Assembly: GCA_948144175.1 (NCBI GenBank)
Contig: CANXME010002498.1
Span: 62,001 to 126,000, forward strand
Source: Closterium sp. NIES-65
Lineage: Eukaryota; Streptophyta; Zygnematophyceae; Desmidiales; Closteriaceae
Length of the DNA stretch: 64,000 nt
Direction: 5' to 3'
Shown one piece after another: positions 10,521 through 57,527 of the stretch. The notes under the pieces are model-generated. The model worked only from the letters and a program-made list of their open reading frames with translations. It searched no databases and was not told the DNA's origin. Position numbers and translations under genes: made by a program. The number at the start of each line of letters is the position of its first letter. Position 1 is the stretch's first letter.

Positions 10521-12887
10521 CTGAGGGAGCTGGACCTGTTTGTGTGGCGTCTGGTGGTGCTGGACCTGGAGGTTCTCCGGGTGCTTCGTCTCGGCGGGAG
10601 CCACTCTCTCCACCGGAGCTACGCGAGTGGTTTGCCCGGCGCTGGAGGCGTGCTGCTGGAGCTGGAGGTTCTTCGGCTGCTGAGGGTGCTGGTCCCGTCA
10701 TAGTTACAGTTACAGCCGGCCTCCCCCTTACCTGCTCCTTCTCCCTACACTGGTCCTACTGGAGGTCTTGCTGCGCGTCGTGAGCCTACGTCTCGCCCTG
10801 CGTCGCCTGTCCGTCCTGCTCGCACTAGTGGTCGTGGTTCGCGTCCGCGTCCTCCTCCTGTCCCTGGCACGCACCTGATGTCTCTGCGTCCGTCCACTGC
10901 TCCTCTGCGTGCCCCTTTGACTTCTCCTCCAGAGTCCTCTCTTCCTGCTCTTCCTGCTCTTCCCGACCCGGAGTCGGACTCTCTTCGTGCTGCCAGTCCT
11001 ACTGTCACGCGTCTCCTTGCTACTGTCGTCACTGACCCTTCCTTTGAGTCCACTGCTGCGTCTGCCCTAGTTGCTGAGCTCGTCGACTTTGCTGCTCGCT
11101 GTCGCCTAGACTACGCTGCTAGTCTTGTCGCTGAGTCTGAGTCTGTCTGTCCTCCGTCCGTCGGGGGTGAGTGTGCCCTTGGCACGGACGTCCTTGAGGA
11201 CAGGCAGGAGAAGTTCAAGTATCTGGCTGCTGCTTCACCTCATCTCGTGTCCGTACTACTTACCCCTGAGGGAGACCCGGATGCACTTGACATCCCGACT
11301 CCGCGCTCTTACGCTGAGGCGATAGAGGGTCCCTACTCCTCTTAGTGGCAGGCAGCTATGGATACAGAGATGGCTTCCTAGAAGTCCACAGGCACCTATA
11401 TTGACGAGGTTCCCCCTCCTGGGGCGAACATCGTCAGTGGCATGTGGATTTTCAGGGTGAAGCGGCCGTCGGGTTCTCCGCCTGTCTTCAAGGCGCGTTA
11501 CGTGGCTCGTGGCTTCAGTCAGCAGCAGGGAGTTGACTACTTTCAGACCTTCTCTCCCACCCCGAAGATGACCACTCTTCGGGTACTGCTGCACGTAGCT
11601 GCTCACCATGACTACGAGCTGCACTATCTTGACTTCAGCACTGCTTTCTTGCAGGGCAGCCTGCACGATGAGATCTGGCTGCGCCGCCCACCTGGCTTCA
11701 ATGGGTCTTTTCCTCCTGGCACCAAGTGGAGCCTCCGGCAGCCAGTCTACGGCCTCCGCCAGGCACCGCGCGAGTGGCACGACACATTGAGGACTACACT
11801 TGCGGCTCTTGGGTTTGCCACTTCTACTGCCGACCCGTCGCTGTTTCTGCGCACCGACACCTCTTTGCTGCCGTTCTACATCCTCGTGTACGTCGACAAC
11901 TTGGTCTTTGCCACAGCTGACACTGCTGGACTAGCCTACGTGAAGTCCGAGCTGCAGGAGAGACACACGTGCACAGACCTGGGTGAAATGCGTAGCTACC
12001 TTGGCTTGCAGATCACCCGGGACAGAGCTCGCCGCACCATTACCCTGACTCAGTCACACATGGTGCAGCAGGTCCTTCAGCGCTTAGGCTTCACGTACTC
12101 CTCGCCTCAGGCCACTCCTCTGCCTACTCGCCACTCGCTCTCAACTCTGCCTTCGGATGAGTCCGTAGAGTCGAGTGGCACGTATCCAGAGCTTTTTGGC
12201 TGCCTCATGTACCTGATGACCTGCACACGACCTGACCTTGCATACCCTCTTAGCATTCTCGCACGCTATGTTGCTCCTGGGAGACACAGACCGGAGCACA
12301 TGGCTGCAGCGAAGAGGGTGTTGCGCTACTTGTGCAGTACGTCGGGCATGGGGCTAGTGCTTGGAGGGCGGAGTCCGGTGGTCCTCACTGGGCACGCAGA
12401 CGCTTCTTGGGCTGACGACCAGGCTACGCAGCGGTCGTCACAGGGTTACACCTTCAGCCTTGGTTCTGGCTCTGTTTTGTGGAGTGCTACTCGCTCGTCT
12501 TCTGTTCTCGGCTCCAGTTGTGAGGCTGAGATCTACGCAGGGGCCATGGCTGCACAGGAGCTTCGCTGGCTCACCTACCTGCTGACTGACCTCGGAGAGC
12601 CGCCTCGTTCTCCTCCAGTTCTGTACGTAGACAACAAGGCCATGCTGGCCTTGTGTCGAGAGCAGAGACTGGAGCACAGAACAAAGCACATTGCTCTCCG
12701 CTACTTCCTTGCTCGTGAGCTACAGCAGCGTGGTCAGTTGCGGCTTGCGTACGTGGCCTCTGAGGCCAACAGTGCTGATGTCTTCACCAAGGCACTTGCG
12801 CCTTGTGATCATCAGCGCTTCTGCACTCAGCTCGGTCTTGTGCCCGTCTTGCCTCACTTGCTCACCTCTTGACCTTACTTGTACTGT

Positions 12888-17580: not shown

Positions 17581-17595
17581 GTGTCACTAACCGTC

Positions 17596-18638
17596 ACCCT
17601 GAGATGCCACTAACCATCACCCCGAGATGCCACTAACCATCACCCCGAGATGTCACTAACCATCACCCCGAGATGCCACTAACCATCACCCCGAGATGCC
17701 ACTAACCATCACCCCGAGATGCCACTAACCATCACCCCGAGATGCCACTAACCATCACCCCGAGATGTCACTAACCATCACCCCGAGATGCCACTAACCA
17801 TCACCCCGAGATGCCACTAACCATCACCCCGAGATGTCACTAACCATCACCCCGAGATGTCACTAACCATCACCCCGAGATGTCACTAACCATCACCCCG
17901 AGATGTCACTAACCATCACCCCGAGATGCCACTAACCATCACCCCGAGATGCCACTAACCATCACCCCGAGATGTCACTAACCATCACCCCGAGATGTCA
18001 CTAACCATCACCCCGAGATGCCACTAACCATCACCCCGAGATGTCACTAACCATCACCCCGAGATGCCACTAACCATCACCCCGAGATGCCACTAACCAT
18101 CACCCCGAGATGCCACTAACCATCACCCCGAGATGCCACTAACCATCACCCCGAGATGCCACTAACCATCACCCCGAGATGCCACTAACCATCACCCCGA
18201 GACGCCACTAACCATCACCCTGAGATCCCACTAACCATCACCCCGAGATGCCACTAACCATCACCCCGAGATGTCACTAACCATCACCCCGAGATGCCAC
18301 TAACCATCACCCCGAGATGCCACTAACCATCACCCCGAGATGCCACTAACCATCACCCCGAGATGCCACTAACCATCACCCCGAGATGCCACTAACCATC
18401 ACCCCGAGATGCCACTAACCATCGCCCCGAGATGCCACTAACCATCACCCCGAGATGTCACTAACCATCACCCCGAGATGTCACTAACCATAACCCCGAG
18501 ATGTCACTAACCATCACCCCGAGATGCCACTAACCATCACCCCGAGATGCCACTAACCATCACCACGAGATGCCACTAACCATCACCCCGAGATGTCACT
18601 AACCATCACCCCGAGATGCCACTAACCATCACCCCGAG
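17596..18638. repeat. 23-bp minisatellite, left arm (about 45 units)
   Basis: The unit is 23 bp, beginning ATGCCACTAACC and ending CACCCCGAG. Units differ mainly at one position, GCC versus GTC. The array continues in the same phase after the gypsy element, at 27024. Together the arms give about 130 units, roughly 3 kb. It lies within intron 4 of the decayed left GT14 copy, between donor-side exon-4 fragments. Confidence 0.95.
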
Positions 18639-19047
18639 TGTCACCAAATACAGTGGTAAAGAACAATATATTTGGTTGTACGCTATAGTTGGTGTAGTGA
18701 GGTGTAGGATTGGGGTTATGCAACTTTACAGAGGGGTTGTTGAGCTTCAAGGGAATGACGCGAAGTTGGTAGCATGGGGAATTGGGACATTGGGAAGAGC
18801 TACAAGCGCCTCGAGGAGCAGGGAATCTGCAAGCAACCAGTAAGGCACATGGCGACTCGAACCCAACCCAAGGCCATGGAAATGGTCGTGACTCTGGGTA
18901 GGGAATAAAGCAGCCTAGCCTAGACACTAGAACCTGCTCTCTCGTTTTGTTTGCCTACTATAGTGGATTCAATTCACCGTTCTAAGGCTACGGCAGCTAG
19001 GTGATACGCCACTGAGGGCAGCCAGCTTGTGGGGGTAGGAATCTCTC
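18639..19047 (+). repeat. 5' LTR of the gypsy element
   Basis: This is a 409-bp stretch beginning TGTCACCAAATAC, shared with 26487-26895 without visible differences. It contains AATAAA near 18905, a possible polyadenylation signal. The outer flank is a minisatellite unit cut after CGAG. I could not assign the primer site after it with confidence. Confidence 0.9.
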
Positions 19048-19329
19048 ACAAAACGAGAGAGACCTTACTGGCGACATGGATTGCCACGATCAACGTGTGC
19101 AGCGTACGTACTCACGGCGGGAACGATCTCCGTCGCGGAGGAGACGCTCGAGGGAGCGCGGGAGATCGCCGACGCGCTCGCCACGTCGGGCGGCGTACCG
19201 CGCGGATCCGGTGACGCCGACGGACGTGCGAAGGGAAGAAAGCGGGGAGGACCTGCGCGTCAGGTCAGAGCCGTGGAGGCGGCCGACGATCAGCAACCCG
19301 TGGAACCTGGCAGAAGGCCAACGCGGGAC

Positions 19330-20100
19330 GGGTGGAAGGCGTGACAACGCCGACGACGACGGATTGCCCACTGCGCGGGGCGGCGGAAGGCGCGAAAACG
19401 CCGACGACGACGGATCGCCCACTGCGCGGGGCGGCGGAAGGCGTGAAAACGCCGACGACGACGGATCGCCCACTGCGCGGGGCGGCGGAAGGCGTGAAAA
19501 CGCCGACGACGACGGATCGCCCACTGTGCGGGGCGGCGGGAGGCGTGAAAACGCCGACGACGACGGATCGCCCACTGCGCGGGGCGGCGAAAGGCGTGAA
19601 AACGCCGACGACGACGGATCGCCCACTGCGCGGGCCGGCGGAAGGCGTGAAAACGCCGACGACGACGGATCGCCCACTGCGCGGGGCGGCGGAAGGCGTG
19701 AAAACGCCGACGACGACGGATCGCCCACTGCGCGGGGCGGCGGAAGGCGTGAAAACGCCGACGACGACGGATCGCCCACTGTGCGGGGCGGCGGGAGGCG
19801 TGAAAACGCCGACGACGACGGATCGCCCACTGCGCGGGGCGGCGAAAGGCGTGAAAACGCCGACGACGACGGATCGCCCACTGCGCGGGCCGGCGGAAGG
19901 CGTGAAAACGCCGACGACGACGGATCGCCCACTGCGCGGGGCGGCGGAAGGCGTGAAAACGCCGACGACGACGGATCGCCCACTGCGCGGGCCGGCGGAA
20001 GGCGTGAAAACGCCGACGACGACGGATTGCCCACTGCGCGGGGCGGCGGAAGGCGTGACGCGGCCGACGAGGAGGAGTTCCCCACTCCGCGGGGCGGCGG
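19330..20100 (+). repeat. 51-bp coding repeats in the gypsy gag N-terminus
   Basis: Fourteen near-identical 17-residue units with the core GGRRENADDDGSPTAR are followed by two diverged units. Single-residue variants (VR, GGE, AGG, LP) recur in the same order with a period of five units (255 bp), which shows block duplication. The units are Arg/Asp-rich and probably disordered. The array is open in additional frames on both strands, which produces long spurious reading frames. Confidence 0.9.
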
Positions 20101-21481
20101 AAAGCGCGACATCGCCAACGACGAGCAGGCTTTCCCTGTTGCGCGGGAAGGAGGAGGGCAGAGGTACAAGAGGAGGGATGAAAGGGAGCGAGCCCGACAC
20201 GGAAAGGTGCGGGGGGAGGACGAGGAGCACGGGAACGAGGAGTACTCACCTGCGGGACGGCAGGGAGAGGGAAAGAGAGCATCAGCGGGTGTCTACCGCT
20301 CGCCTGAGCCGAGACCAGGATATGACCGCCGACGGCGCATGGCGATGGGTGAAGGTCGGTGGGCCGAGCGGGAACAGCGGGAAGAGAGGTTGGACTATGA
20401 GGAGCGACGTCAGCAGAGCCCGCCTGAGTGGGAGCGGGTGTGCAACAGAGAAGGACGAGAAAGGGGAAGGCGATCACCGCACGGCTCCAGAGCAGAAGGA
20501 GGAGGTCGGCAGCGGAGGGAGCAAGAGTGGCATCGCCAGGAACGTTCACCTGTGCGGGGAAATGGACGTTGGGAGGATCAGGAAAGGTGCAGGAGACAGA
20601 GCGAAGACGACCAGAGGAAAGGTCGGAGTCCAAGTGGCACTAGGAGGCTATGGCAGCATGGAGAAGGATCTAGTGGGGCCAGGGCAGCTCGTGAGGGACT
20701 GGAGCGAGCACTGTACGGGACAAGCGCAGGAAGCAGAGGAGACAAAGGAAAGCAGCGAGGGGCTGCTCTGCCAGATCGGGGAGGCTCGGGGAGTTGGGAT
20801 TGGGGGAGATGGGGCGCAACGGCAGCACCACGGGTGGAGGTGCCGGTGCGCTTCACAGGGAACGAGAACACAGGACCAAGCCTCAAGAACTACCTGATGC
20901 AGATCAGCAATGTGAAGTATCGGTGCGATCGAAGCGGGATGGACCCCATAGACTTCTTCTTGAGCCTGCCAAACACACTCGGGGGGGAAGCAGAAACCCT
21001 ATATCGCATGAAGATGGGAGAGTGGTTGAGGAGGGCCGATGAAGATGAGGAGGACCCGACGGTGCTATTTCTGGACCGGCTGAGAAAGCAGTTTCCAGGG
21101 CACACAGCGGCGCGCATCAAAGAGTTTCAAGAGTTCAAGAGGAGGGACGAGGAATCTTTGCTAACGTACTACGGCCGGCTGATGAATCTAGCGGAGGACG
21201 TGGTGTGCACGGACAGCAGTATGGTCATTAGTAAATTCCTAAATGGGCTGGACAAGGGACTGGCAGGGGGACTGAGAATGCGGGTCTACGAGCTGGGAGC
21301 AGACGCGACACCTGAAGAGGTGTTTGAGCTAGCAGAGAGAGTGGAGCTGGCACAGAGAAAGTATGAGGTGTACCTGCCGCGGCCAACAGAGAGGAAGAAT
21401 CCTGCTTGGGCTGCAGCAATGATACCTGAGACGGGAGGAAGAGAAGAGAGCCGACAGGAAAGAGGAGCTGAGACACGCACC

Positions 21482-21632
21482 TGCCACCGATGCAAGCAGC
21501 CAGGGCATCTGATGAGAAATTGCAGGAATTGCGACACCTGTGGGAAGCCAGGACACCGCCGAAGGGACTGCCCGGATGCACCCAGCTGCGAGGTGTGTGG
21601 GAAGCGGGGGCATAAGGGGAAGGACTGCTACC
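21482..21632 (+). other. Three CCHC zinc knuckles of the gypsy gag
   Basis: Three successive CX2CX4HX4C knuckles are visible: CHRCKQPGHLMRNC, CDTCGKPGHRRRDC and CEVCGKRGHKGKDC. In gag proteins these bind the element's RNA during packaging. Three in a row is more than the one or two usual for plant gypsy gag. Confidence 0.9.
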
Positions 21633-22505
21633 AACGCACAGGAGGGCCAAGGAGGACGCCAGAGGAGATAGAAGGGCAGATAGGGAGATTGCAAGCGCAG
21701 CTGCAGGCACTGGGAGGGAAGAAGGAGAAAGAGGCAGGATTGTATGCAAGGGAAGAGGATGACGAAGCAGAGGTGATAGATGAGCCAGCGCTTGAGTACA
21801 ATTTCATGGTGTTGCGCAGCCGAGAGGAGTTGGGCCTGCGCAGCGGGGGCAGGGATGGACGAAAAGAGCAAGTGGTGAGGGAGAGGAGCAGGCCAAAGAG
21901 AGCTCCAGAGGAGAAGGGTAGAGGGGAAGAAGAGCCAGCCAGGCATCCCAAGGAACGGCTAGCCAGTCAAGCGACGGTGCTGGTGGCAGGAGCGGGAACA
22001 GTGGCAGTGGGAGGGGAAGTGGCAAGAACTGCGATCATAGATACGGGGGCACAGAGTGTGATGTTGGGGAGGCGGTTAGCAGAGAAGCTGGGGCTGAACG
22101 GGCCGGGACAGCACATAAAACGAGGAATGCTAGTAATGACAGCAGAGGGAGGTGAGCCTAAGTCCCTGCCGTGCACCAAGACTCCAGTGGAGATAGTCCT
22201 GATGCCGGGGAAGGAGGAGCAGACTAGTATAAGGCTGCAGTGTGGGATTTCAGACTCAGAAGATTTTGATGTACTGCTAGGCACAGACCTGATTTGGGGA
22301 GTAGGGATGACCATCTGCACGTGGAAAGAAAAGGTAAAGTTTCGGAAGCAGTATTGGGAGCGGGGGAGCAAGACGGGAGAGCTGCCTGTGTCATTCACTA
22401 AGCAGGAGCCAAAGAGGGCGTACACGGGCGAGCAGATGGGGACCAGGGAGAGAGGGAGAGCAGGGATCGTGGGAAAAGCAGCAGCAGTCAACGCATGGCA
22501 AGAGC

Positions 22506-23480
22506 CGATAAAGCTGGTCGAGCTGTTCGGGGGAATAGGAGCAGGGCTGGCAGCAGTGCTCAAGGCAGGAGTGGCCGTGAGGGAATGGGTATACGTGGAA
22601 AATAACGAACAGGTGAGGAAGATGGCAGAGCACCATGCGAGAAAGCTGCAGCAAGAGTACCCCGAGCTACTAGAAGAAGCAGTGATAGTGAAGGCAATGC
22701 GAGGAACAGTGACTGATGTAAGAAGCATCACGCGGGAGGTGGTGAGGAGCTGGGGGCATGTGGACCTGCTGGTGGCCGGATGGGAGTGTCAGGCTGTGTC
22801 AAGGGCAGGGAAAGGAAAGGGATTAGGAGATCCAAGAGGGGCGCTGCTAGTGAACTTGCTGTGCATCATAGACTGGATTAAGGAAGGATAAGAGAAGGTG
22901 GTATACCTGCTGGAGCACCTGGATCTGGAAGGGGACTGCAGGGAGCCTGTCAGGAAAGTGCGGGAGTTAGTGACAAGGAAGCTGGGGAAGGGGGTAAGAT
23001 GTGATGCGGCCAGGCTGGGGGCACGAGCTCATCGTGTCCGGCGATACTGGCAGAACGTGGTCACAGATGAGCAACTGCAGCAGGAGCTGGATGGAATACG
23101 CAGGGACTGGAGCCGGACCGTGCGAGAGATTTTAGAGCCCGGTAGGACAGCGGCACCTGTTAGGAAAGGCAGGCATGAGACACAATGCCCATGCAACAAA
23201 GTGGGGGCAGAGCGCAGGGCGTGGCCGACATTAGTGGGGTACGAAGGGGCAGCTGGGTTCAGAGAGGAAGACGGGCTGCCAGGAGAAGGCATGGTGTATG
23301 ACTGCCGTTCGAAGAGATGGGAGGAGCCAAGTGCGTTAGAAAGGGAATTAGCAATGGGGTATGGAGAGGAGGCCACCAAGGCAGCAGGGGTGACAGAAAA
23401 GGAGAGAAGAAGAGCATTAGGACAGGCCATGGACGGACAAGTTATGCAGTGGTTACTGAGGCGGATGTGGAGAGGGCTGG
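22506..23480 (+). other. DNMT3-like cytosine-5 methyltransferase domain inside the gypsy element
   Basis: Motifs occur in the order of the DNMT3/DRM-type catalytic domain. There is a SAM-binding motif I (LVELFGGIGAGLAA, about 22509), an acidic motif II (VENNE), a GTVTDVRSI segment like motif III, and a Cys-containing motif IV region (DLLVAG...CQAVS, about 22765-22800) followed by GKGKGLGDPRG. Then come a YLLEHLD segment where motif VI is expected, AHRVRRYWQN (about 23025), like the AHRARYFWGN block of DNMT3, and a final block with ERELAMGYG and RRALGQAMDGQVMQWLL (about 23335-23460), like the end of DNMT3 catalytic domains. DNMT3 enzymes methylate cytosine in DNA de novo using SAM. The placement between protease and RT is in line with the element's own frame. 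Whether it is active cannot be told from sequence. Confidence 0.85.
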
Positions 23481-23739
23481 TGCTAGAAGAGGAAGGAGGA
23501 GAAGAGAGTGTGGGGACGAGGGTGAAAAAGGTGGGGGCATGGGTATGCATGGCAGCCAAGGAAGAGCCAGCATGGGTCGTGGGGAATGCAATGAGTGAGA
23601 AAGGAAAAGAGGCAATGCAGGCGGTGCTGGCGAGGTATAGGCACGCCTTCGCGTTTACTATGCAGGAGCTGGGGAAGTGCACTGTGAAGGAGATGGAGCT
23701 GAAGCTGGTGACGGATGAGCCGGTATTCCAGAGGAAGCG

Positions 23740-24890
23740 GAGGATGACCCCTGGAGATGAGGATGTCTGCAAGGAGAAATGTAAGGAGCTGATGGAAGCA
23801 GGGTTGATACAGAGGTCGGAATCAGAGTATGCAACACCGACAGTAGTAGCTGCCCGAAAGGACCTGCTGGGGGAGGTGCTGAGCAGACGCATGTGTGGGG
23901 ATTATCGGGCACTGAACAAGGTGACAGTGCCTGACCGCTACCCAATGCCCACAGCTGAAGATATCTTTGACCGGCTGGGGGCAGGTGAGGTCTTTAGCAC
24001 GCTAGACTTAAGACAGGGGTTCAACCAGATTAGGATAAGGAAAGAGGACGTGCGGAAGACGGCGTTCCATGGAGCAGATGGCCTATACGAGTGGCTGTTC
24101 ATGCCATTCGGGCTGCGAAACGCGTCTGCCATCTTTCAGAGAGTAATGGACAGCGTGCTGAGGGGGCTGGAGTGCGCGGCGTGTTACATAGATGATGTAG
24201 TAATTTTCAGCCGGACGGAAGAAGAGCATGTGAGAGACGTGGAGCAGACACTGAAGGCGTTGGCAGCAGCTGGGCTGACATGCCATCCGAAGAAGTGTAG
24301 GTGGGGAGAGGCGACAGTGCAGTACCTGGGCTATGAGGTTAGGGGCGGGCAGCTAGGGATCCAGCAGGCGAAGATTGAGGTGCTGAGAAGGCTGCAGCAG
24401 CCAAAGGACCGAAGCGGACTAAGGGCGGTACTGGGATTTCTGAGCTATTACCGCAGGTTCGTCCCGAATTTCAGCAAGCGGGCTGCACCACTGAACGGGC
24501 TGCTGAAGGAGGACAGGAAGTGGGAATGGGGGATGGAGCAGGAAGCAGCATTGAAAGATCTGATGGAAGCGGTGCAGACAGCAACGATTCTGCAGCTACC
24601 CAAGACTGACAAGCCCTTTTGCCTATACACCGACTGGAGCAGCCAAGGCATGGGGGCAATCCTGTGCCAGGAGTTAGATGGGGAGGAGAGGGTTGTGGCA
24701 TACGCAAGCAGGAGGTGCAGCCCAGCGGAAGCCAAGTACAGCTCTTACCACGGAGAGGGGCTGGCAGCCGTGTGGGCTGTAAAACACTTCAGGGTATACC
24801 TGCAGGGAAGGAAGTTCACACTGATCACAGACCATCAACCCCTGCAATGGCTGATGACCCACCAAGGGCTGACAGGGAGGAACGCGCGTT
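23740..24890 (+). other. Gypsy reverse transcriptase and RNase H region
   Basis: The reverse transcriptase shows CGDYRALNKVT, DRYPMPT, FSTLDLRQGFNQIRI, FMPFGLRNASAIFQRVMD and the catalytic YIDD (about 24185). RNase H begins at about 24595 with FCLYTDWSSQGMGAIL and includes YASRRCSPAEAKYSSYHGEGLA. This is a standard Ty3/gypsy arrangement, with integrase downstream. Confidence 0.93.
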
Positions 24891-25254
24891 GGGCCGTGAC
24901 GCTGTAAGAATATGACTTCAAGATACGCCACAGGCCGGGAAAGACTCTGCAGCACGTGGACGGGCTCTCAAGGAACCCGCCGGCAGCAGAGCCAGTACAC
25001 ACGCTGATGTTGCTGGCAAGGCAAGGGGAAGAGGCAGCAGCAGGGAAGCAAAAGGGGCCAAAGGATATTTGGGAAGATCCAGCAGCACTGCGATGGATTC
25101 AGGGAGAAACTGATGAGGAGGAGCAGGTCTCTGACAGGGTCAGGGCAAGGGGGCACCATTACCGATGGTACCAGGGACAGCTGCAGTTACAGACGGCGGA
25201 TGGATGGAAGCTGGTACCTGCACCACAGGACAGGGAGGGAGTGATTAAGGAGGT

Positions 25255-26370
25255 GCACAGGAAGCTGGGGCACTTCGGGCACGAGCGCACGACGGAACTG
25301 TTGAAGACCGGCTGGTGGTGGGAGGGTATGAGAAGGCAGGTCAAGGAATGGGTCAGCGGATGCGAAGGTTGTCAGAGGAGCAAGGCCAGCCTAGCACAGG
25401 CGAAGCAGGAGCTGCAGTCACTGCCGATAAGAGGGTTAGGGTTCAGGTGGTCTCTCGACATAGCTGGTGAACTGCCGCTGAGCAGGGGAGGCAAGCGGTA
25501 TATACTGCTAATGGTGGAACACGCGAGCAAGTGGGTAGAGGTGTGTGCATTGCCGAGCAAAGATTCCAGGCACGTGGCAAAGGCATTCAAGGGACAGGTC
25601 CTGTGCAGGTTTGGGGCACCAGGGGAAGTGCTCACAGATCAGGGGACGGAATTCAGAGGGGAATTTCAGGCACTGCTGGACGAGGCAAGGGTGACACACA
25701 GGCTGACATCTAGGTACCACCCACAGAGCGATGGGTTGACTGAGCGCCTGGTGCAAACCCTGAAACGGAACCTGAGGGCATATGGAGAGAAGCGCAAGAG
25801 AGACTGGGATGAGGAGTTGGACTGGATTGCGGCGGGGTACCGGTTTGGGAAGCAGGCCTCCCTGAAGGACTATTCCCCGTATAGCATGCTGTTTGGGAAG
25901 GAGCCAATCCTGCCAGTGGGAGCACCGAGGGTGCTGACAGATGTGGTGCAAGTCACAGGAGCAGAGCAGTGGGTGGCACTAGCGGAGGCACGGGCACGAT
26001 ACATGCGGGAGATGCTCCCTGCGGCCCTGGAAAACCTGCACACGGCGCAGTTGAGGGACGCACACAGGTATGAGCAGCGGCAGCAGCAGGGTGGCAGGAA
26101 GGCCAGACCAGCGGTGATGGAAGGACAAGAGGTGTACCTGCGCAGGGCAAAGAGGGATACGCTGGACGTGGGGCTAGGAACGCAGAGATGGAAGGTGAAG
26201 GAGGTGAGAGGGTCTGGAGTGCTGGTGCTGGAGAACGACAAGGGGGAAAAGACGGTGGATCATCAGACTAATGCTGCGGCGGTGAATGGACGAGGGCCTC
26301 AGCGAGAGGGTCCTGTGACCCGGGCACGGGCAGCCCGAGACCGGGCACAGGAGGGGGCAGGTAGTGGCTG
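25255..26370 (+). other. Gypsy integrase and C-terminal tail
   Basis: The HHCC zinc-binding segment (HRKLGHFGHERT ... CEGCQRSK) is followed by the DDE-type core with SLDIAGELP, TDQGTEFRGEF and HPQSDGLTERLVQTLKR. The C-terminus is basic and has a LENLHTAQLRDAHRYEQR segment. A decayed relative of this segment occurs at 55830-56215. No chromodomain motif is seen. Confidence 0.9.
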
Positions 26371-27023
26371 AGGCCGAGGCACGCAAAGTCTGCAGGCAGG
26401 CAGGGAAGTGCAGAAAGAAGAAGGGTAAGAGGACAAGGGAGGAAGCAGCCAAGGGGTGAGGTGAGAAAGAGGAGATCTCCGACAGCTGTCACCAAATACA
26501 GTGGTAAAGAACAATATATTTGGTTGTACGCTATAGTTGGTGTAGTGAGGTGTAGGATTGGGGTTATGCAACTTTACAGAGGGGTTGTTGAGCTTCAAGG
26601 GAATGACGCGAAGTTGGTAGCATGGGGAATTGGGACATTGGGAAGAGCTACAAGCGCCTCGAGGAGCAGGGAATCTGCAAGCAACCAGTAAGGCACATGG
26701 CGACTCGAACCCAACCCAAGGCCATGGAAATGGTCGTGACTCTGGGTAGGGAATAAAGCAGCCTAGCCTAGACACTAGAACCTGCTCTCTCGTTTTGTTT
26801 GCCTACTATAGTGGATTCAATTCACCGTTCTAAGGCTACGGCAGCTAGGTGATACGCCACTGAGGGCAGCCAGCTTGTGGGGGTAGGAATCTCTCTCTGG
26901 TAGTGGCTGAGGCCGAGGCACGCAAAGTCTGCAGGCAGGCAGGGAAGTGCAGAAAGAAGAAGGGTAAGAGGACAAGGGAGGAAGCAGCCAAGGGGTGAGG
27001 TGAGAAAGAGGAGATCTCCGACA
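26360..27023 (+). repeat. 125-bp duplication flanking the gypsy 3' LTR
   Basis: The 125 bp at 26360-26484, beginning GGTAGTGGCTGAGG and ending CTCCGACA, recur exactly at 26899-27023 on the far side of the 3' LTR. The outer copy ends in CA directly at the CGAG target duplication, so it behaves as the true right end of the insertion. The 5' LTR has no such tail. Confidence 0.9.
26487..26895 (+). repeat. 3' LTR of the gypsy element (shared part)
   Basis: The stretch matches 18639-19047 by eye. It is followed by 125 bp (26899-27023) that repeat the sequence just upstream of this LTR. Only after those 125 bp does the minisatellite resume. Confidence 0.9.
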
Positions 27024-28972
27024 CGAGATGTCACTAACCATCACCCCGAGATGCCACTAACCATCACCCCGAGATGTCACTAACCATCACCCCGAGATGC
27101 CACTAACCATCACCCCGAGATGCCACTAACCATCACCCCGAGATGCCACTAACCATCACCCCGAGATGCCACTAACCATCACCCCGAGATGCCACTAACC
27201 ATCACCCCGAGATGCCACTAACCATCACCCCGAGATGCCACTAACCATCACCCCGAGATGCCACTAACCATCACCCCGAGATGCCACTAACCATCACCCC
27301 GAGATGCCACTAACCATCACCCCGAGATGCCACTAACCATCACCCCGAGATGCCACTAACCATCACCCCGAGATGCCACTAACCATCACCCCGAGATGCC
27401 ACTAACCATCACCCCGAGATGTCACTAACCATCACCCCGAGATGTCACTAACCATCACCCCGAGATGTCACTAACCATCACCCCGAGATGTCACTAACCA
27501 TCACCCCGAGATGCCACTAACCATCACCCCGAGATGTCACTAACCATCACCCCGAGATGCCACTAACCATCACCCCGAGATGCCACTAACCATCACCCCG
27601 AGATGCCACTAACCATCACCCCGAGATGCCACTAACGATCACCCCGAGATGCCACTAACCATCACCCCGAGATGCCACTAACCATCACCCCGAGATGCCA
27701 CTAACCATCACCCCGAGATGCCACTAACCATCACCCCGAGATGCCACTAACCATCACCCCGAGATGCCACTAACCATCACCCCGAGATGCCACTAACCTT
27801 CACCCCGAGATGCCACTAACCATCACCCCGAGATGTCACTAACCATCACCCCGAGATGTCACTAACCATCACCCCGAGATGTCACTAACCATCACCCCGA
27901 GATGTCACTAACCATCACCCCGAGATGTCACTAACCATCACCCCGAGATGCCACTAACCATCACCCCGATATGTCACTAACCATCACCCCGAGATGCCAC
28001 TAACCATCACCCCGAGATGCCACTAACCATCACCCCGAGATGCCACTAACCATCACCCCGAGATGTCACTAACCATCACCCCGAGATGTCACTAACCATC
28101 ACCCCGAGATGTCACTAACCATCACCCCGAGATGTCACTAACCATCACCCCGAGATGTCACTAACCATCACCCCGAGATGCCACTAACCATCACCCCGAG
28201 ATGTCACTAACCATCACCCCGAGATGCCACTAACCATCACCCGGAGATGCCACTAACCATCACCCCGAGATGTCACTAACCATCACCCCGAGATGCCACT
28301 AACCATCACCCCGAGATGCCACTAACCATCACCCCGAGATGTCACTAACCATCACCCCGAGATGTCACTAACCATCACCCCGAGATGTCACTAACCATCA
28401 CCCCGAGATGTCACTAACCATCACCCCGAGATGTCACTAACCATCACCCCGAGATGTCACTAACCATCACCCCGAGATGCCACTAACCATCACCCCGAGA
28501 TGCCACTAACCATCACCCCGAGATGCCACTAACCATCACCCCGAGATGCCACTAACCATCACCCCGAGATGCCACTAACCATCACCCGAGATGCCACTAA
28601 CCATCACCCCGAGATGCCACTAACCATCACCCCGAGATGCCACTAACCATCACCCCGAGATGCCACTAACCATCACCCCGAGATGCCACTAACCATCACC
28701 CCGAGATGCCACTAACCATCACCCCGAGATCCCACTAACCATCACCCCGAGATGCCACTAACCATCACCCCGAGATGTTACTAACCATCACCCCGAGATG
28801 CCACTAACCATCACCCCGAGATGCCACTAACCATCACCCCGAGATGCCACTAACCATCGCCCCGAGATGCCACTAACCATCACCCCGAGATGTCACTGAC
28901 CATCACCCCGAGATGTCACTAACCATCACCCCGAGATGTCACTAACCATCACTCCGAGATGCACCGTGAGAA
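27024..28972. repeat. 23-bp minisatellite, right arm (about 84 units)
   Basis: This continues the array at 17596-18638 and starts with the duplicated CGAG. The same 23-bp unit shows the GCC/GTC two-state variant in runs, plus a few private changes such as a one-base-shorter unit near 28585. It ends against a donor-side fragment of GT14 exon 4. Confidence 0.95.
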
Positions 28973-33039: not shown

Positions 33040-34715
33040 GGCTGCAGATCAGTAAGACCGAAATCCCTGATAGATTTTAACAGTTAACAAACGGCGGGGC
33101 ACGAATCGCGCTGGTTAAGACAGAATCACTGGACGGTCGGACTAGGCCTTGCTGGTGGGTATCTGAGCCTAGCAACGCTCAAAGAGAACCAAACCCTAGC
33201 TTTCTGTCTTGAAATCTCTCGTCACAAGCAACCACCGCTCGGATAACCAAACCCAGATAGCTACAGTGAAGTTTATATAGGCAGTGAAAGCATATGGAAC
33301 CCCGTTCTGAATCGAGACGAGTGGTTCTGTAACGCGCTAGCGAGAGCCTGTTCTTGCTCGATATAGCCCTGCTTCAGTTAGTACAGAATTGCTGGTTTCG
33401 TTGGCATATACCTCTTATACATATTCTAGACAAGTCAGGGAGTCACGACTCTGCCGAACCGAGTGCCCAACCAAGCGACTCGTTCTGAATTTTCCGTGGC
33501 TGAGATTCGCAGAACAAAACGTTTGACGAGCCTGTTATCAAGTCTGGTTGAAGAGACCAGACGGTGCTGTGGTGAACTCGGCTACCTTGAGCCCCGGGCA
33601 GACCTGGGACATGCCTACCATACCTTGTCAAGGTTCGGTCTAGCTGCCCAGAACACGTTTCTTCCCAGCCTCTATACTAGCGTACATGATTCAATGGCAC
33701 ATGTTCATGTCTGGCCCCGGTTCGGGTAAAGCCTGATTGGCTTGACAGGAACCTCGTGTCGCGTTGAACCCTTGGCATTTCAAGGAGGACATGTCAGCCC
33801 GCCATCACGACACTTGTGATTTGGGTTGTGCTGTGCGTTCTCGTACGATCAGATGAGTTACAAAGTGTTACAAAGCGGTACAGCCTCACCCCCTCAACCT
33901 TCCTCCTCCCCTCGCGGCACGACATTCGTCCAACAAAAACCACACAAACCGCCCCCTCGCCCCTCTCGTCACGAAAATCGCCCCTCATTGCCCCCTGATT
34001 GAAATCGCCCCACCACATCTTGCTCCCTTGCCCTGGAATAGACCAGTTCTGCCTAGGGTTTTGTGGAGCCCTTGCTTTAACACAGGCTGCGTGCAGCGCG
34101 AAGCACGCATACTTCACATCGCGTGAGGAGTCTAGAAATAATAATTCACTGTTCACGCTTCGCCATCCTCAGTCCAGTGATTCATACAAACTCTTGCTCC
34201 TTGCCCAGCCAGGGTGGGTCAAGTTGTAGTGTGCAAAGACGTCGACAATCTAAAACATGAGAACTCGAAGTGACATACGTCAGGCTACGGTTCTCCGACA
34301 GCCCGTAATTTCGAAGTCAGGAGCAACTTGAGAGTGCATGTGCAAATGACGCCCACCGAACCGGCGCAAGTTCTCTAGTCGTCGACTAGACCTTCTATTT
34401 CCGTCAAACCAACACATTTCGAACGGATTGATTTTTCCAGGATGTTTCAGCAGCGGATCTGTAGACTCGTTGAGATGAGCTGATGCTATTAGAAATGTTG
34501 TGAATAGCTCCTCGATCGCGCGCAATCACGCTCGATTGCGATAAGTTGTGCGTTTCAGGAGCGAAACTTGCTTCGCAGCCTTTTCCACCCGATAGCCCCG
34601 CGTAATATTTCCCAGCCTTTCCCACTGCAGTCTCATATGATTTGGTCACCCCACGGACGTCATTCTTAGCATCTCGCAGGAATTCGTTTCCAGCCACCTT
34701 CGCTCACCTCTCGCC
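33040..34715. other. Intergenic between eIF1A and the right GT14 gene
   Basis: This region must hold the eIF1A promoter and 5' untranslated region (from 33040 upward) and the GT14 promoter (toward 34715). The last 200 bp are the inverted counterpart of 31837-32070. I see no convincing gene; the short reading frames have no recognisable motif. TATA-like elements are not clear enough to call. Confidence 0.5.
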
Positions 34716-41400
<6,685 letters not shown>

Positions 41401-42808: not shown

Positions 42809-45800
42809 CACCCCCATAGGCAAAGTGGGGGAGAACAAGGGGTCACAAGACCAGTCAAGCAAAGCAAAGCAAAGCAAGCTCAGGGTGGATCACAAAGTCA
42901 CCACACAGTCCGAGCACAAGAGCAGGGCCAGAGGCCAGTTCACAAGCAAGAGTACAGACATATATAGAAGACTAGACAAGCAAGAGCAGGTATATATATG
43001 TCATAGTACAAGTAAAGTCAAGAGGAGAGCAAGTGAGGCAAGACAGGCACAAGACCCAGCTGGGTGCAGAAGCGCTGATGGTCACAAGGCGCGAATGCCT
43101 TGGTGAACACATCAGCAGTGTTGGCCTCAGAGGCCACGTACGCAAGTCGCAACTGACCACGCTGCTGCAGCTCACGAGCAAGGAAGTAGCGGAGAGCAAT
43201 GTGCTTCGTTCTGTGCTCCAAGCGCTGCTCTCGACACAAGGCCAGCATGGCCTTGTTGTCTACGTACAGCACTGGAGGAGAAAGAGGCGGCTCTCCAAGG
43301 TCAGTCAGCAGGTAGGTGAGCCAGCGAAGCTCCTGTGCAGCCATGGCCCCGGCGTAGATCTCAGCCTCACAACTGGAGCTGAGAACCGAAGACGAACGAG
43401 TAGACCGCCACGAGACAGAGCCGGAACCAAGACTAAAGGTGTAACCCTGTGACGACCGCTGCGTAGCCTGGTCGTCAGCCCAAGAAGCGTCCGCGTGGCC
43501 TGTAAGGACCACTGGACTCCGCCCTCCAAGCACTAGCCCCATGCCCGACGTACTGCACAGGTAGCGCAATACCCTCTTCGCTGCAGCCATGTGCTCTGGT
43601 CGGTGTCTCCCAGGAGCAACATAGCGTGCAAGAATGCTCAGAGGGTATGCAAGGTCAGGTCGAGTGCAGGTCATCAGGTACATGAGGCAGCCAACAAGCT
43701 CTGGGTACGGGCCACTCGACTCTACGGACTCATCCGAAGGCAGAGCTGAGAGCGAGTGGCGAGTAGACAGAGGAGTGGCCTGAGGCGAGGAGTACGTGAA
43801 GCCGAAGCGCTGAAGGACCTGCTGCACCATGTGTGACTGAGTCAAGGTGATGGTGCGGCGTGCTCTGTCCCGAGTGATCTGCAAGCCAAGGTAGCTGCGC
43901 AGTTCACCCAGGTCTGTGCACGTGTGTCTCTTCAGCAGCTCGGACTTCACGTAGGCGAGTCCAGCAGTGTCCGCTGTGGCAAAGACCAAGTCGTCGACGT
44001 ACACGAGGATGTAGAACGGCGGCAGTGAAGTGTCGGTGCGCAGAAACAGCGACGGGTCAGCAGTAGAAGGAGCAAACCCAAGAGCCGCAAGCGTAGTCCT
44101 CAGTGTGTCGTGCCACTCACGCGGTGCCTGGCGGAGACCGTAGACTGGCCGTCGGAGGCTCCACTGGGTGCCAGGAGGGAAAGTCCCAGTGAAGCCAGGT
44201 GGACGGCGCAGCCAGATCTCCTCGTGCAGGCTACCCTGCAGGAACGCAGTGCTGAAGTCGAGAGAGTGAAGCTCGTAGTCGCGCTGAGCGGCTATGTGCA
44301 GCAGCACCCGAAGAGTGGTCATCTTCGGGGTGGGAGAGAAGGTCTGAAAGTAGTCAACTCCCTGCCGCTGACTGAAGCCACGAGCAACGTACCGCGCCTT
44401 GAAGACAGGTGGAGAGCCCGGCGGCCGCTTCACCCGGAAGATCCACATGCCACTGACGATGTTCGCCCCAGGAGGGGGAACTGCGTCAACGTAGGTGCCT
44501 GTGGACTTCCAGGAAGCCATCTCTGCATCCATAGCTGCCTGCCACTGAGAGGAGTAGGGACCCTCTACGGCCTCCGCGTAAGAGCGCGGAGTCGGGATGT
44601 CTAGTGCATCCGGGTCTCCCTCAGGAGCAAGCAGTACAGACGCGAGATGAGGTGAAGCAGCAGCCAGACACTGTAACTCCTCCTGCCTGTCCTCTAGGAC
44701 GTCCGTGCCAAGAGCACACTCACCCCCGACGGACGGAGGACAGACAGACGCAGACTCAGCAACAAGACTAGCAGCGTAGTCTAGACGACAGCGAGCAGCA
44801 AAGTCGACGAGCTCAGCGACAAGAGCAGACGCAGCAGTGGACTCAAAAGAGGGGTCAGCGACGACAGTAGCAAGCACACGCGTGACAGTAGGACTGGCAG
44901 CACGAAGAGAGTCCGACTCAGGGTCGGCAAGCGCAGGAAGAGAGGACTCAGGAGGAGAAGGCAAAGGGGCACGCAGAGGAGCAGTGGACGGACGCAGAGA
45001 CATCCGGTGCGTGCTAGGAACAGGAGGAGGACGCTGACGCGAGCCGCGTTCACTAGCGCGAGCAGCACGAACAGGCGACACAGGACGAGACGCAGGCTCA
45101 CGACGCTCAGCAAGACCTCCAGTAGGACCAGTGTAAGGAGAGGGAGCAGGCAGAGGAGAGGAAGGCTCCAACTGTGACTGCGACTGGACAGGCTGTGGAC
45201 ACTCTACCGAAGGAGAAAGACCAAGAACCTGCTGTAGGAGCGGAACGAAGTACGGCCGAGGCCGCGCGACAGCTTCAGACTCAGCAGGGACAGCACCAGC
45301 ACCCTCAGCGACAGCACCAGCGCCACCAACACCTCCAGCGGCAGGACCTCCAGCAGCACCAGCAGCAGAACCACCGCCAGGACAGACAGCAGTAGTCTCA
45401 GCACCAACACCCTCAACAGCTCCAGCTCCAGTAGGACCCGCAGGCCCAGTAGCTCCGGGACCGGCAGCACCAGCACCCTCGACGGTCGACGAAGCTCCAG
45501 CTCCAGCAGCACTCCTCCAGCGGCGAGCAAACCACTCGCGCAGCTCCTATGGAGAGAGGGGCTCCCGGCGAGACGCAGCAGCAGGAGAAACCCCAGGCTC
45601 AGCAGCTCCAGACTCAGCACCCCCAGGCACAGCAGCTCCAGACGTAGCACCCCCAGGCTCAGCAGCTCCAGACTCAGCACCTCCAGGCTCAGCAGCTCCA
45701 GACTCAGCACCCCCAGACTTAGGAGCTCCAGCTCCAGTAGGACCCGCAGGCCCAGCAGCTCCGGGACCGACAGCACCAGCACCCTCAGCAGGCGAAGAAG

Positions 45801-48399
45801 CTCCAGCTCCAGCAGCACGCCTCCAGCGGCGAGCAAACCACTCGCGCAGCTCCTGTGGAGAGAGCGGCTCCCGCCGAGACTGAAGAACCGGAGAGCCCCC
45901 AGGTCCAGCAGGCGCAGGCTCCGCACCTCCAGGCCCAGCACCCCCAGGCTCAGCAGCTCCTGACGTAGCACCCTCCGGCTCAGCACCCCCCTGCTCAGCA
46001 CCCCCAGACTCAGCACCCCCCGGCCTCGCACCCCCAGGCTCAGCACCCCCAGCAGCAGCACCCCCAGGCTCAGCACCCGCAGCAGGACCAGACTCAGCAG
46101 CAACCTCGACTGGCCCGACCGTGTCTACCTGGGACACACCTGAAGGGGCAGGAACCTGAGGGGGGAGGGGGTCTACCGGGGGGGGAACTGGTACCAGGAA
46201 GTCCGGTGGGGGGGGGAGGGAAGGAGTACGGTAGGGGAAGAGGCGGTAGAAGGGGACTGACTCGTCGAACGTGACGTCCTGGGAGGACAGAACACGACGA
46301 GAGGAGGGGTGGTAGAACTGCCACCCTGGAGCGTCAGGGGGGAAGCCAAGGAAGACACAGGGAGCAGCACGGGGGGACAGCTTGTCCGCAGACAAGTCGC
46401 GGACAAACGCCCGAGATCCCCAGACACGGAACGCAGACGCATCGCCGACCTTCCCCGTCCACAGTAACACTGGGGACATCGCGGGCCGAGAGACCCTGGG
46501 GTGAAGGTTGAGCTGATGCGCCGCGTACCGAACCGCAAACGGCCACAGAAAGTGGGGGGCAGCCGCATGCATCATGGACGTACGAGCGACATCCATGACC
46601 ATGCCAATGCGGCGCTCAGCAATCCCATTTTGCTGTGGAGAGTCCGGAAGCGTAAAGGTCTGGCGGATCCCCTGTGCACGACAGTAGGCTCGCAGAAGGC
46701 GAGAGGAGAACTCCCCACCGCGGTCAGAGTGCAGACGCAGAACAGGAAAGTCCGAGCCGAAGCTCCTCCTGAGCTGGAGACGAGCCTCGCGGATCCAGTC
46801 GATCAGCACCTCAGTGACAGCACCCTTGCTGCGCAAGGGGAAGACTGAGGTGTAACGCGAGTAGTCGTCAACCACCAACAGGAAGTAGCGCTCGTGACCC
46901 TGCCCACGGACGGGGGCCGGGCCCCACACGTCCATGTGAAGCGTCTGCAGAGGAGCCTCTGTCGGGGGAAACTGGGAGGAGTGAGGAGCAGCCCTGAGGC
47001 GCCCCTCGACACAGGGGACACAGGAAGGTCCTGGTCCCGAAGGAAGGGGAGGGAGAGACTGGGGAAGACCAGAGACAAGGACACGGGAAGCCATGCCCCG
47101 AAGACGGGGCAAGGAGGGGTGGCCTAGACGGTGGTGCCACAGAAGAGTCTCGTGAGACAGGAGGCGACACGAACAGGGGGCAGACTCAGGACCAGACCTG
47201 GACGCAGCAGAAAACACCTGACCCGACGCTGCTACCTGACCGGACGCGGGGACAGGAGGAGACTCAGTGGTCAGGGTGTAGAGGCTCGACCCCGGCCGAC
47301 GCGAGAACGTGGCCAGGTGCCGGCCTGTGCGTGCGTCCGTGCAGTGGGTCACCCGCTGACTCGCAGGAGTGAACTGGTGAACCCCCGCATCCTGTAGGTC
47401 TGCACCACTCACCAAGTTCGTCGAGAACGAGGGGAGGTACAGGCCAGACAGGGTGCCCGAGGGGGCAGCCGGACACGGGAGGACAGTGGAAAAGTGAGCG
47501 AGGACAGGACCCCCAGAGGGGTCAGCCAGGGAGACTGCAACCGGCCGACCAAGCGGCGTGAGTGTGGTGCGGTCCCGAAAGAAGGAGCGAGAAGCCCCAG
47601 AGTCAAGTGTAAAGGTGAGGGAGGCCGAAGCCAACGCGGTACCTGAGAGCGCAGCCTCACCCGCACCTGAGGAAGCAGACTCACTAGCACCTAGAGCAGC
47701 AGCCGCACCTGTACCTGGAGCAGGAGACTCACGAGCACCCAGAGCAGCAGCCTCACCAGTAGCTAGAGCAGCAGGTCCTATACCTGGGTCAGACGGGACG
47801 CACAGGTGACCGGCACGGTCAGCACTAGTAGGCAATGCATACATGGCAGTGAGAATAGCATCATAGTCAAGAGCATATATATCGACCCTCTGCCTAAGCA
47901 ACTCCACCCAGTCGGGAAGCTCAGCTTCGTCGCCAAACACGGTACGCCAGGCGTCGCTCAGACGGGCGAAGCAGCGGGACGGTGTATGACTACGTGTCCC
48001 ACAAGGCTGACCAGTCCGAGTACCAGTGCGTATGACGTAAGAGCAGCGAACAGCACTGAGAGACCCTCCACTCTGAGCGTACCACTCACGAAGCTGGCGA
48101 GGCGTGAGAGACACGCGAGAGGGTCGCGGGAGCTGCATCTGGCCGCCACCACGAGTAGAAGCAGCAGGAGTGGTAGTAGGAGTAGCGCCGCCACCCCTAC
48201 AGCCCCAACCAGCGTACCACTCACGCAGCTGCTGGGGCGTGAGGGACTCACGCAGGCGTCGATGGGGCTGCATCTGGCTCCGCAAGTAGAAGCAGGAGCA
48301 GGACTAGCAGCAGGAAGGCAGGCAGCCAGGCAAGCCAAAAGGCAGGCAGGCAGGCAAGCAGGCGACGCGCAGCGTGCTAGCAGGGCAAGAGCTCACCAG

Positions 48400-54530: not shown

Positions 54531-55829
54531 CCGCACTGCAGGCTGCAACTGATGGCCCGCCCCCTCTTCCCATCCTCCCCTATTCCGTCTGCTTTGTGTT
54601 GACTTGCCATCTCTTCCCCCTCTGCCTTCTCCACACCCCTTCCACTTTCCTCCCCTCTCCAGGCTGCAACTGGATGAAGCGTGGCATCTTGCTGCCCACC
54701 GCTTGACTACTCTGCTGCACCTCCCAACCCCCCTCTTCCTCCCCCGTCCCCCCCCCCCCTTCCCTGCCGCCAACCACACCTCTCCAGGCTGCAACTGGGT
54801 CAAGGCATTGCGTCCCTTCTTGAGCTACGTCCTATGGGAGCCCGCCACTTGAACCCCCCCCTCCTCCCACAGAAGCCCACCACTCGTCCCTCATCCGCTA
54901 ATTCCTATGAGAGCCCACCGCTTAAATCCTCCTCTTCACCTTCCACCGCCCCCCTCCCCGCTCTCCTCTCGCCACCACAACTCGCCAGGCTGCAACTGGA
55001 TCAAGGCGTCTCGTCCCTCCCTGCTATACGTCCTATGGGAGCCCTTCCTCCCCTCTCTACGGGAGTTCACCACCGGCACCCTACATGCCATGTCCCATTC
55101 CCCCTCGCCCTCCCCACCGCACGCGCTCCAGGTTGCAACTGGATCAAGGCGTCACGCCCCTTCCTGCACTACGTTTTATGGTAGCCCACCAGCTGAACTC
55201 TTGGGTGTACCTTTCACCCCTTCACTCCCTACTTCCTCCCCTCAACTTCCTTTCCTCCCCATTGCAACTGGATCAAGGCGTCGCGCCCCTTCCTGCGAGA
55301 CGTTTTATGGTAGCCCACCAGCTGAACTCTCGGCTGTACCTTTCACCCCTTCACTCCCTACTTCCTCCCCTCAACTTCCTTTCCTCCCCATTGCAACCGG
55401 ATCAAGTGTCTCTCTTCCCACTTCCAACTTTCTGCTGCACCCTCCACCCCCGTCCCCACACCTTTCCCCTCTCTCCCTTTCCCCTCTCTCCCTTTCCCCT
55501 CCTCTCCCCTCCCGTCCACTCGCACTCGCACCTCTACTCGCAACTCTCCAGGCTGCAATTGGATCAAGGCGTCGCGCCCCTTCCTGCGCTACGTCCTGTG
55601 ATGGGCTTCCACTCCCTCCTGCCGCCTGCCTTTGCCCTGGCGTCTCATCACTCCCAACCCCTCTTCCTCCTCCCCACAGCGCAGGCTGCAACTGGATCAA
55701 GGCGTCGCGCCCCTTCCTGCGATACGTCCTATGGGCTGCCACCATTAGCACGGACAAGGCTGAGGATTGGGCAGCACTAGCTCACCTCACCGCAGGGCGG
55801 CGGTGGAGCTGGCAAGGAATATCTCAAGG

Positions 55830-56215
55830 AGCTCATGCCAGCTGCACTGGAGAATGTGCATGTGGCTCAACTGCGGGAGGCTAAGAGGTATCAGCAGAGG
55901 AAGGAGGGTAACAAGGAGCCACATCTCCTTGTGGCGCAGGTAACAGGACAAGGGAGTGGCGCAAGGAAGAGAGGTGTACCTGCGCCTCTCTTCCTTCCGC
56001 CAAGGGAGATACTCTGGACATGGCGGTTGGAGCAGAGAGATGGAAGGTAAAAGAAGTGCGCGCTGGTGCTGGTAGATGAGAAGGGGAGGGAGCAGCGAGA
56101 ACATGTGACAAATGTCGCGGTGGCGGGAAAGGCGGTGTGGTGCCCAAGCTGACGGGTCCCGTGAGCAGAGCCGCTAAGGCAAGGGCTTTGGCACGGGAGG
56201 GGGCAGGGGTGCATG
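55830..56215 (+). mobile_element. Decayed Ty3/gypsy integrase-tail fragment
   Basis: Similarity to the C-terminal tail of the gypsy element at about 26010-26370 is clear: PAALENVHVAQLREAKRY, then EVYLR, DMAVGAERWKVKEV-type and TNVAVAG-type blocks. It is an old fragment with several breaks, lying in intron 4 of the third GT14 copy. The rest of its element was not found. Confidence 0.75.
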
Positions 56216-56574: not shown

Positions 56575-57019
56575 GTTACCGGGCTTCAACTGGATCAAGG
56601 CGTCGCCTTTTTCCCCTCTCCTCCCCTCACCTCTCCCTTCCACTCGCCCCTCTCCAGGCTACAACTGGATCAAGGCATCTCGCCTATTTCTTGTGCTTCT
56701 TGTTGACTTGCCATATCCTCCCCCCCTTGCCCACCTTTCAATATTCCCCCTTTCCACCTGCAACACTGGGCAGGTTGCAACTGGATCAAGGCGCCGCGGC
56801 CCTTCCTGCGCTACGTCCTATGGGAGCCCGCCAGCTGTACATGGCTGACGTCATCGACTCAGACGAGCACTACTTCAGCACCGTCGCCTGCCAGAAAGCT
56901 CGCTTCAACCGGTCCCTGCTCAACGCTAGCCTGCATTTCGCCACATTCGCCAAGGGCAGCCCGGGTAAGTTCACCTTCCCAGTGCTTGACTGTGTGTTGT
57001 GCCCCGCCAACCCCATTCA

Positions 57020-57470
57020 CTCGCACGAGCATCACTTCAGCACCGTGGCCTGCCACTCGCCCCACTTCAACCGCACGCTCCTGAATGCGAGTCTCCATTT
57101 CGCCAAGGCCAGCCCGGTATGTTTCCATGTGATTCATTTGCTGAGAGGGATAGAATTCGAATGCTGGGAGCCACGGATTCTGATGTTGGGAGCCACTTGG
57201 ACGAGCATCACTTCAGCACCGTCGCCTGCCACTCGCCCCGCTTCAACCACTCCCTCGTGAATGCCAGTTTGCACTTCGCCACATTCGCCAAGGGCAGCCC
57301 GGGTACGTATCCATGTGTGGGTGCCACTTTAACGTGCGCTGTGCGCCTGCCGCCACCACATCCACTCGGATGAGCACTGCTGGGGAGCACTTGCGCTCCT
57401 GACGTCATCACCTGACGTCATCGACTCGGACGAGCACTACTTCAGCACCGTCGCCTTCCCTCCCCTCCAC
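57020..57470 (+). repeat. Exon-4 donor-side fragments, third GT14
   Basis: Three copies of the second half of exon 4 follow the full exon, at about 57025-57118, 57207-57300 and 57417-57465. The second one keeps FNHSLVNASLHFATFAKGSP and a GGGTACGT donor-like end. Confidence 0.82.
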
Positions 57471-57527
57471 TTCCCCTCCTCCCCCTGCTTTCCCCTCCCT
57501 GGCCCCTCCCCATCCCCCGTCCCCGAT

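Follow-up and report, generated by a model that had tools for sequence, protein, structure and literature searches.

A recent, defective Ty3/gypsy copy with a DNMT3-like cytosine methyltransferase domain in its Pol frame in Closterium sp. NIES-65

Retrotransposons carrying the type of enzyme normally used to silence them are seldom reported. The locus described here, within a window of 64,000 nucleotides (positions 62,001 to 126,000 of contig CANXME010002498.1, the whole stretch of DNA that was analysed), raises the question of whether a retrotransposon has captured a cytosine methyltransferase and, if so, what the enzyme could do for the element. The precedent named in the preliminary description of the locus is real and close, Dnmt3-type domains having been described in the Pol frame of the Klebsormidium nitens Gypsy element KnitGypsy-Dnmt3 (de Mendoza et al. 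2018, PMC5890265). The explanation favoured here is a recent, now defective Ty3/gypsy copy of the KnitGypsy-Dnmt3 kind with a captured DNMT3-like C5-cytosine methyltransferase, together with a proposed mechanism of action on cDNA. Taken as a whole, this explanation is given slightly better than an even chance; its identity part appears highly probable, and its mechanistic part is tentative, being somewhat more likely wrong than right.

The element and its surroundings

The element comprises a single gag-pol frame (19076-26371) encoding Gag, protease, methyltransferase, reverse transcriptase (RT), RNase H, and DDE integrase, bordered by split direct repeats and embedded in a satellite array. 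The features are as follows, in order along the window.

17585-18638: left-flanking array of the 23-bp satellite
18635-18638: target-site duplication CGAG, left
18639-19047 (+): split direct repeat A1 of 409 bp, beginning with TG, LTR-like; identical to A2 over 409/409
18937-18950 (+): 14 nt that can pair with the primer-binding site; predicted to act as self-primer and inferred to be the transcript start
19048-19061 (+): primer-binding-site-like 14-mer, directly 3' of A1
19076-26371 (+): gag-pol frame, from the in-frame ATG at 19076 to the TGA at 26369-26371, interrupted by two TAA codons
19076-22000 (+): Gag, from the first in-frame ATG at 19076; PF00098 E=2.7e-9
near 21482 (+): Gag CCHC zinc knuckles
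22001-22288 (+): aspartic protease; PF13650 E=2.6e-6, residues 976-1071 of 19076-22888
about 22508-23491 (+): C5-cytosine DNA methyltransferase domain with DNMT3-like motif order, placed by Pfam, PHROG, PDB, and motifs
22889-22891 (+): first TAA in the frame, located in the methyltransferase domain after motif IV and before motif VI
23888-24340 (+): reverse transcriptase; PF00078 E=5.2e-31
24527-24904 (+): RNase H; PF17919 E=7.8e-31, PF17917 E=9.5e-34
24905-24907 (+): second TAA in the frame, after RNase H and before integrase
25226-25723 (+): DDE integrase, H2C2 zinc finger and core; PF17921 E=6.9e-18, PF00665 E=1.2e-14
26360-26484 (+): split direct repeat B1, 125 bp, overlapping the frame's final 12 bases
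26487-26895 (+): split direct repeat A2, 409 bp, separated from B1 by the dinucleotide GC
26899-27023 (+): split direct repeat B2, 125 bp, ending in CA, the right end of the element; identical to B1 over 125/125
27024-27027: target-site duplication CGAG, right
27024-28962: right-flanking array of the 23-bp satellite

Assignment to Ty3/gypsy follows from the Ty3-type RT, whose top PDB match is the Ty3 RT/RNase H (E=2.7e-63), and from a DDE integrase placed after RT-RNase H. Among the Pfam matches listed at E<=1 for three frames of the element there was neither a chromodomain nor a tyrosine recombinase, the integrase being of the rve and H2C2 type instead. The methyltransferase lies in line with the polyprotein, between the protease motif DTGAQ at 22040 and the RT motif YIDD at 24185, as had been proposed. 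Within Gag, 15.7 copies of an in-frame 51-bp tandem repeat (19322-20124) encode 17-residue arginine-/aspartate-rich units.

Elsewhere in the window, a degenerate remnant with a stop (55820-56208) corresponds to the C-terminus of a related Gypsy integrase, with 62% and 45% identity to that of the element (E=1.7e-13); no methyltransferase or RT piece was listed beside it within 54-59 kb (tblastn, E<=10). Three Copia frames carrying an RVT_2 or an integrase domain, 11382-12869 (+), 43021-45546 (-), and 45550-48303 (-), lie in long inverted similar stretches of up to 1952 nt that are 93% complementary. A Core-2/I-branching glycosyltransferase at 34641-35606 (+) (PF02485 E=2.1e-20) is likely to be a host gene or gene fragment, and presumably a plant-like one; together with the KnitGypsy-Dnmt3 precedent it suggests a host among green algae of the charophyte grade. 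A coding-like stretch of 60 nt occurs in four copies, 162-229 nt apart, at 56857-57483, where three pieces in and after the stretch, taken in unverified frames, gave no Pfam match. The tRNA and Rfam searches likewise returned no match.

The methyltransferase domain and its possible role

The claim that 22506-23480 encodes a cytosine methyltransferase was borne out by profile search, PF00145 matching the 127-residue N-terminal half of the domain at E=1.6e-7 (31.5 bits, cut-off 22) and a longer version, with the stop read as X, at E=2.3e-6. The C-terminal half alone had no Pfam match at E<=1 and was recognised by phrog_363 at E=0.0031, while phrog_116, a PHROG methyltransferase profile, spans residues 1-321 (stop read as X) at E=1.2e-16. 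The NCBIfam model dcm matched the N-terminal half at 5.1e-9 with 36 bits, which is below its own cut-off of 100.65. All of the motifs named beforehand were found in one frame and in the order given, namely FGGIGAG (22526), VENNE (22595), TDVRSI (22712), GWECQ (22778), AHRVRRYWQN (23027), ERELAMGYG (23339), and RRALGQAMD (23408). The regular expression for this series found no match in 20000 shuffles of the domain's residues, a weak check given that the expression was written after the motifs had been seen. A structure prediction from the single sequence reached a mean pLDDT of 34.6 and was discarded.

The C5-methyltransferase motifs run I, III, IV, VI, VIII, X; this is the unrearranged order, and the rearranged order of plant DRM enzymes is not found. 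When the domain was ranked against the PDB, DNMT3A/DNMT3B came first (E=2.2e-6, domain residues 67-215), followed by M.HhaI (1.7e-3) and a "DNA methyltransferase", 4onj (0.021), which we take to be a plant DRM. Phage methyltransferases found by tblastn served as controls; four loci were aligned with the domain, of which three were searched against the PDB and the fourth (L004) was aligned only. DNMT3 ranked first for two of the three, with M.HhaI close behind in one of these two, and M.HhaI ranked first for the third. The PDB ranking alone does not, therefore, show an origin from a host DNMT3. The membership in DNMT3 originally suggested is upheld as regards motif order, and the structural ranking turns out not to discriminate; with these two as its basis, the DNMT3 label is plausible but not proven.

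The same controls bear on whether the domain may have lost its function. In C5-methyltransferases, motif IV usually reads PC and motif VI usually reads ENV. The alignment with the four phage enzymes showed the motif IV Cys, the motif VI Glu, the motif VIII R-x-R, and the motif X Gly to be invariant, with EC in the element at motif IV against PC in 4/4 phage enzymes and EHL at motif VI against ENV in 4/4. Because of these two replacements, the catalytic activity of the domain is doubtful as judged from its residues. A domain that is catalytically dead or vestigial throughout the lineage, serving at most to bind nucleic acid or as a spacer within Pol, would accommodate both replacements as well as the TAA within the methyltransferase; it is nonetheless considered unlikely, the catalytic Cys, the motif VI Glu, R-x-R, and the SAM-site FGGIGAG all being retained, and the domain in published KnitGypsy-Dnmt3 copies being under purifying selection (PMC5890265).

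Derivation from a viral or bacterial C5-methyltransferase rather than from a host DNMT3 is assigned an equally low probability. Phage enzymes match most of the domain, the best being that of Vibrio phage 1.148.O (87% covered, E=1e-7), and 394 of 50,697 phage records match it at E<=1; the PHROG profiles score above Pfam, and the top PDB match shared with two of the three phage enzymes also speaks for such a source. Against it stand an identity of just 25-27% to the four aligned phage enzymes and the placement of the published relative's domain, that of KnitGypsy-Dnmt3, in a divergent Dnmt3-related clade (PMC5890265). No relatives of the element were confirmed in viral contigs scanned with the N-terminal half, the C-terminal half, and the RT, nor were relatives of the domain confirmed in prokaryote genome contigs by one scan with the domain.

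As to what a captured DNMT3-like enzyme would do, the mechanism tentatively proposed is that, in intact sister copies, the protease cuts the methyltransferase out of Pol, and the released enzyme, co-packaged with RT and integrase, methylates the cDNA in its double-stranded form ahead of integration; the new copy might thus enter methylated chromatin and not be treated as foreign DNA. Methylation of cDNA was proposed by de Mendoza et al. for DIRS elements (PMC5890265). An action on the RNA of the element, or as a brake on the element for the benefit of the host, is a less probable role than either of the readings just weighed; the same authors discuss methylation of RNA in the case of LINE elements and, for DNMT elements generally, a role as a brake, but two SymbioDIRS-Dnmt3 domains methylate CG in yeast DNA, and RNA activity is not among the results reported in the relevant text of PMC5890265.

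Base composition was considered separately as a sign of self-methylation. The CpG observed/expected ratio is 0.55 in RT-integrase and 0.54 in the methyltransferase, compared with 0.71 and 0.73 in the remainder of the window; in Gag, whose repeats are rich in CpG, it reaches 1.12. Compared with synonymous shuffles, CpG at codon junctions gave z of -4.3 for Gag outside the repeats, -2.7 for the methyltransferase, and -5.4 for RT-integrase; the complete first frame (z +1.2) does not fall below the shuffles. The three Copia frames, which carry no methyltransferase, gave z of -4.9, -9.1, and -4.6, with the same CpG depletion and excess of TpG/CpA. The depletion was therefore ruled out as a sign of self-methylation, being common to the Copia frames in the window, and fits a general methylation of transposons by the host.

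Insertion, age, and in-frame stops

The element begins with TG, ends with CA, and has CGAG on either side. Its target is the 23-bp satellite, present in about 46 copies on the left and about 84 on the right with a 97% match. When the flanks are joined with one CGAG, 117 of 120 positions match the satellite unit, versus 73-80 of 120 when the join is shifted by 1-4 bases; excision of the element restores the satellite register. From the restored register and the CGAG duplication it follows most simply that B2 came in together with the rest of the element, so that the split layout (A1-coding-B1-A2-B2, with GC separating B1 from A2 and TCT separating A2 from B2) belongs to the inserted molecule. 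The A and B repeats show no difference over 534 of 534 positions, which sets the age of the insertion, as a 95% upper bound, at about 0.0028 changes per site in each copy. Judged by this identity, the target duplication, and the restored register, the element is a recent insertion. Recent mobility, initially argued from identical LTRs, accordingly stands, the repeats being split ones and not plain LTRs.

With its two TAA codons, the copy as it reads cannot make an intact methyltransferase or Pol under the standard code and so would be unable to mark its own DNA, a capacity once suggested for it that has to be given up for the present copy. Nonsense changes make up 4.5% of the point changes in the frame, and about 0.9 of them would be expected at the 95% age bound over about 7.3 kb of coding sequence (hand calculation). 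Gain of both stops after insertion is hence possible but less likely, and inheritance from the template, or assembly errors, is likelier than two later stops. The copy may stem from a template that was already broken and was mobilised in trans, or else the damage may postdate insertion.

An alternative code with TAA read as glutamine, considered for two stops in otherwise open frames, is disfavoured by codon counts. That the frame is effectively intact, through such recoding by the host or through readthrough, is very improbable, since two TAA and no TAG stand beside 84 CAG and 22 CAA in the element, and none of either stop beside 90 Gln codons in the three Copia frames (a count biased by their having been picked as open), notwithstanding that both stops read TAA then GA and that the second (24905) presumably occupies a position where Gypsy Pols usually have Gln.

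Repeat layout, priming, and comparison with known elements

In self-priming of the Tf1 kind, the first bases of the transcript act as the primer. Here the site just after the 5' repeat is complementary to a stretch within that repeat, 19048-19061 pairing with 18937-18950 over 14/14 nt and starting exactly at the A1 boundary. Complementarity of 14 nt is unique to this start among 7312 internal start positions, and, apart from the starts that overlap it, 10 nt is reached at a single further position, 21626. This suggests Tf1-like self-primed reverse transcription, with the 5'-terminal 14 nt of the transcript as the probable primer. Self-priming has been predicted in Tcn1 chromoviruses and in the plant Copia TAR lineage (PMC6317226).

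The joint between B1 and A2 (...CCGACA-GC-TGTCACC...) contains the palindrome GACAGCTGTC. A hybrid scheme of replication by a Gypsy element with a DDE integrase, combining Tf1-like self-priming, a DIRS-like circle-junction step, and the action of a sister copy's methyltransferase on cDNA, can be drawn up and is rather improbable. The interior B1-GC-A2 joint would, under this scheme, be a copy of the right end of the element fused to its left end and would serve as the template needed for rebuilding the terminal B2, a repeat that would not be regenerated by reverse transcription of the ordinary LTR type; the methyltransferase of an intact sister copy would then act on the circular or end-joined cDNA. 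Another clear instance sharing the unusual arrangement of repeats suggests that Gypsy-Dnmt3 elements form a stable type that replicates in a way of its own. The predictions are self-primed cDNA, circle-junction intermediates, and cDNA that is methylated before integration.

The nearest known system is KnitGypsy-Dnmt3, described as having a DIRS repeat structure with typical Gypsy domains (PMC5890265, Fig. 4c legend). The two elements share Ty3/gypsy coding with protease, RT, RNase H, and DDE integrase in order, a Dnmt3-type methyltransferase inside the Pol frame (here interrupted by the TAA at 22889), a lack of visible introns, and the DIRS-like repeat order A-coding-B-A-B, these likenesses all being judged from the published description. 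The retrotransposon DNMT of K. nitens gave no methylation in yeast, a result that its authors call inconclusive (PMC5890265). A 2025 paper also places DNMT3 in streptophyte and dinoflagellate retrotransposons, which it calls LTR Copia and DIRS (PMC12344493).

Other systems share single traits with the present element. SymbioDIRS-Dnmt3 of Symbiodinium likewise has a Dnmt3 domain in Pol and A-coding-B-A-B repeats but is a DIRS-type element of a dinoflagellate host with a tyrosine recombinase in place of the DDE integrase (PMC5890265). The Ngaro/PAT/VIPER elements have the same split order, A1 followed by B1-A2-B2, yet encode a tyrosine recombinase, as opposed to the DDE integrase and target duplication seen here (PMC6681497); of the two hallmarks of DIRS/Ngaro elements, the present one has the split direct repeats and lacks the tyrosine recombinase. 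With the Tf1/Sushi and Tcn1 chromoviruses it would share self-priming, predicted here, instead of a tRNA primer, and it differs from them in that a chromodomain was not found; split repeats and a methyltransferase, both present here, go unmentioned for those chromoviruses in the relevant text of PMC6317226. The element is best filed as a new copy or member of the published Gypsy-Dnmt3 kind represented by KnitGypsy-Dnmt3, from which it differs by the two stops of the present copy. What it adds to that kind, besides these stops, is precise ends, a target duplication, and a predicted self-primer, the main text of PMC5890265 making no mention of primer binding, self-priming, or a target site.
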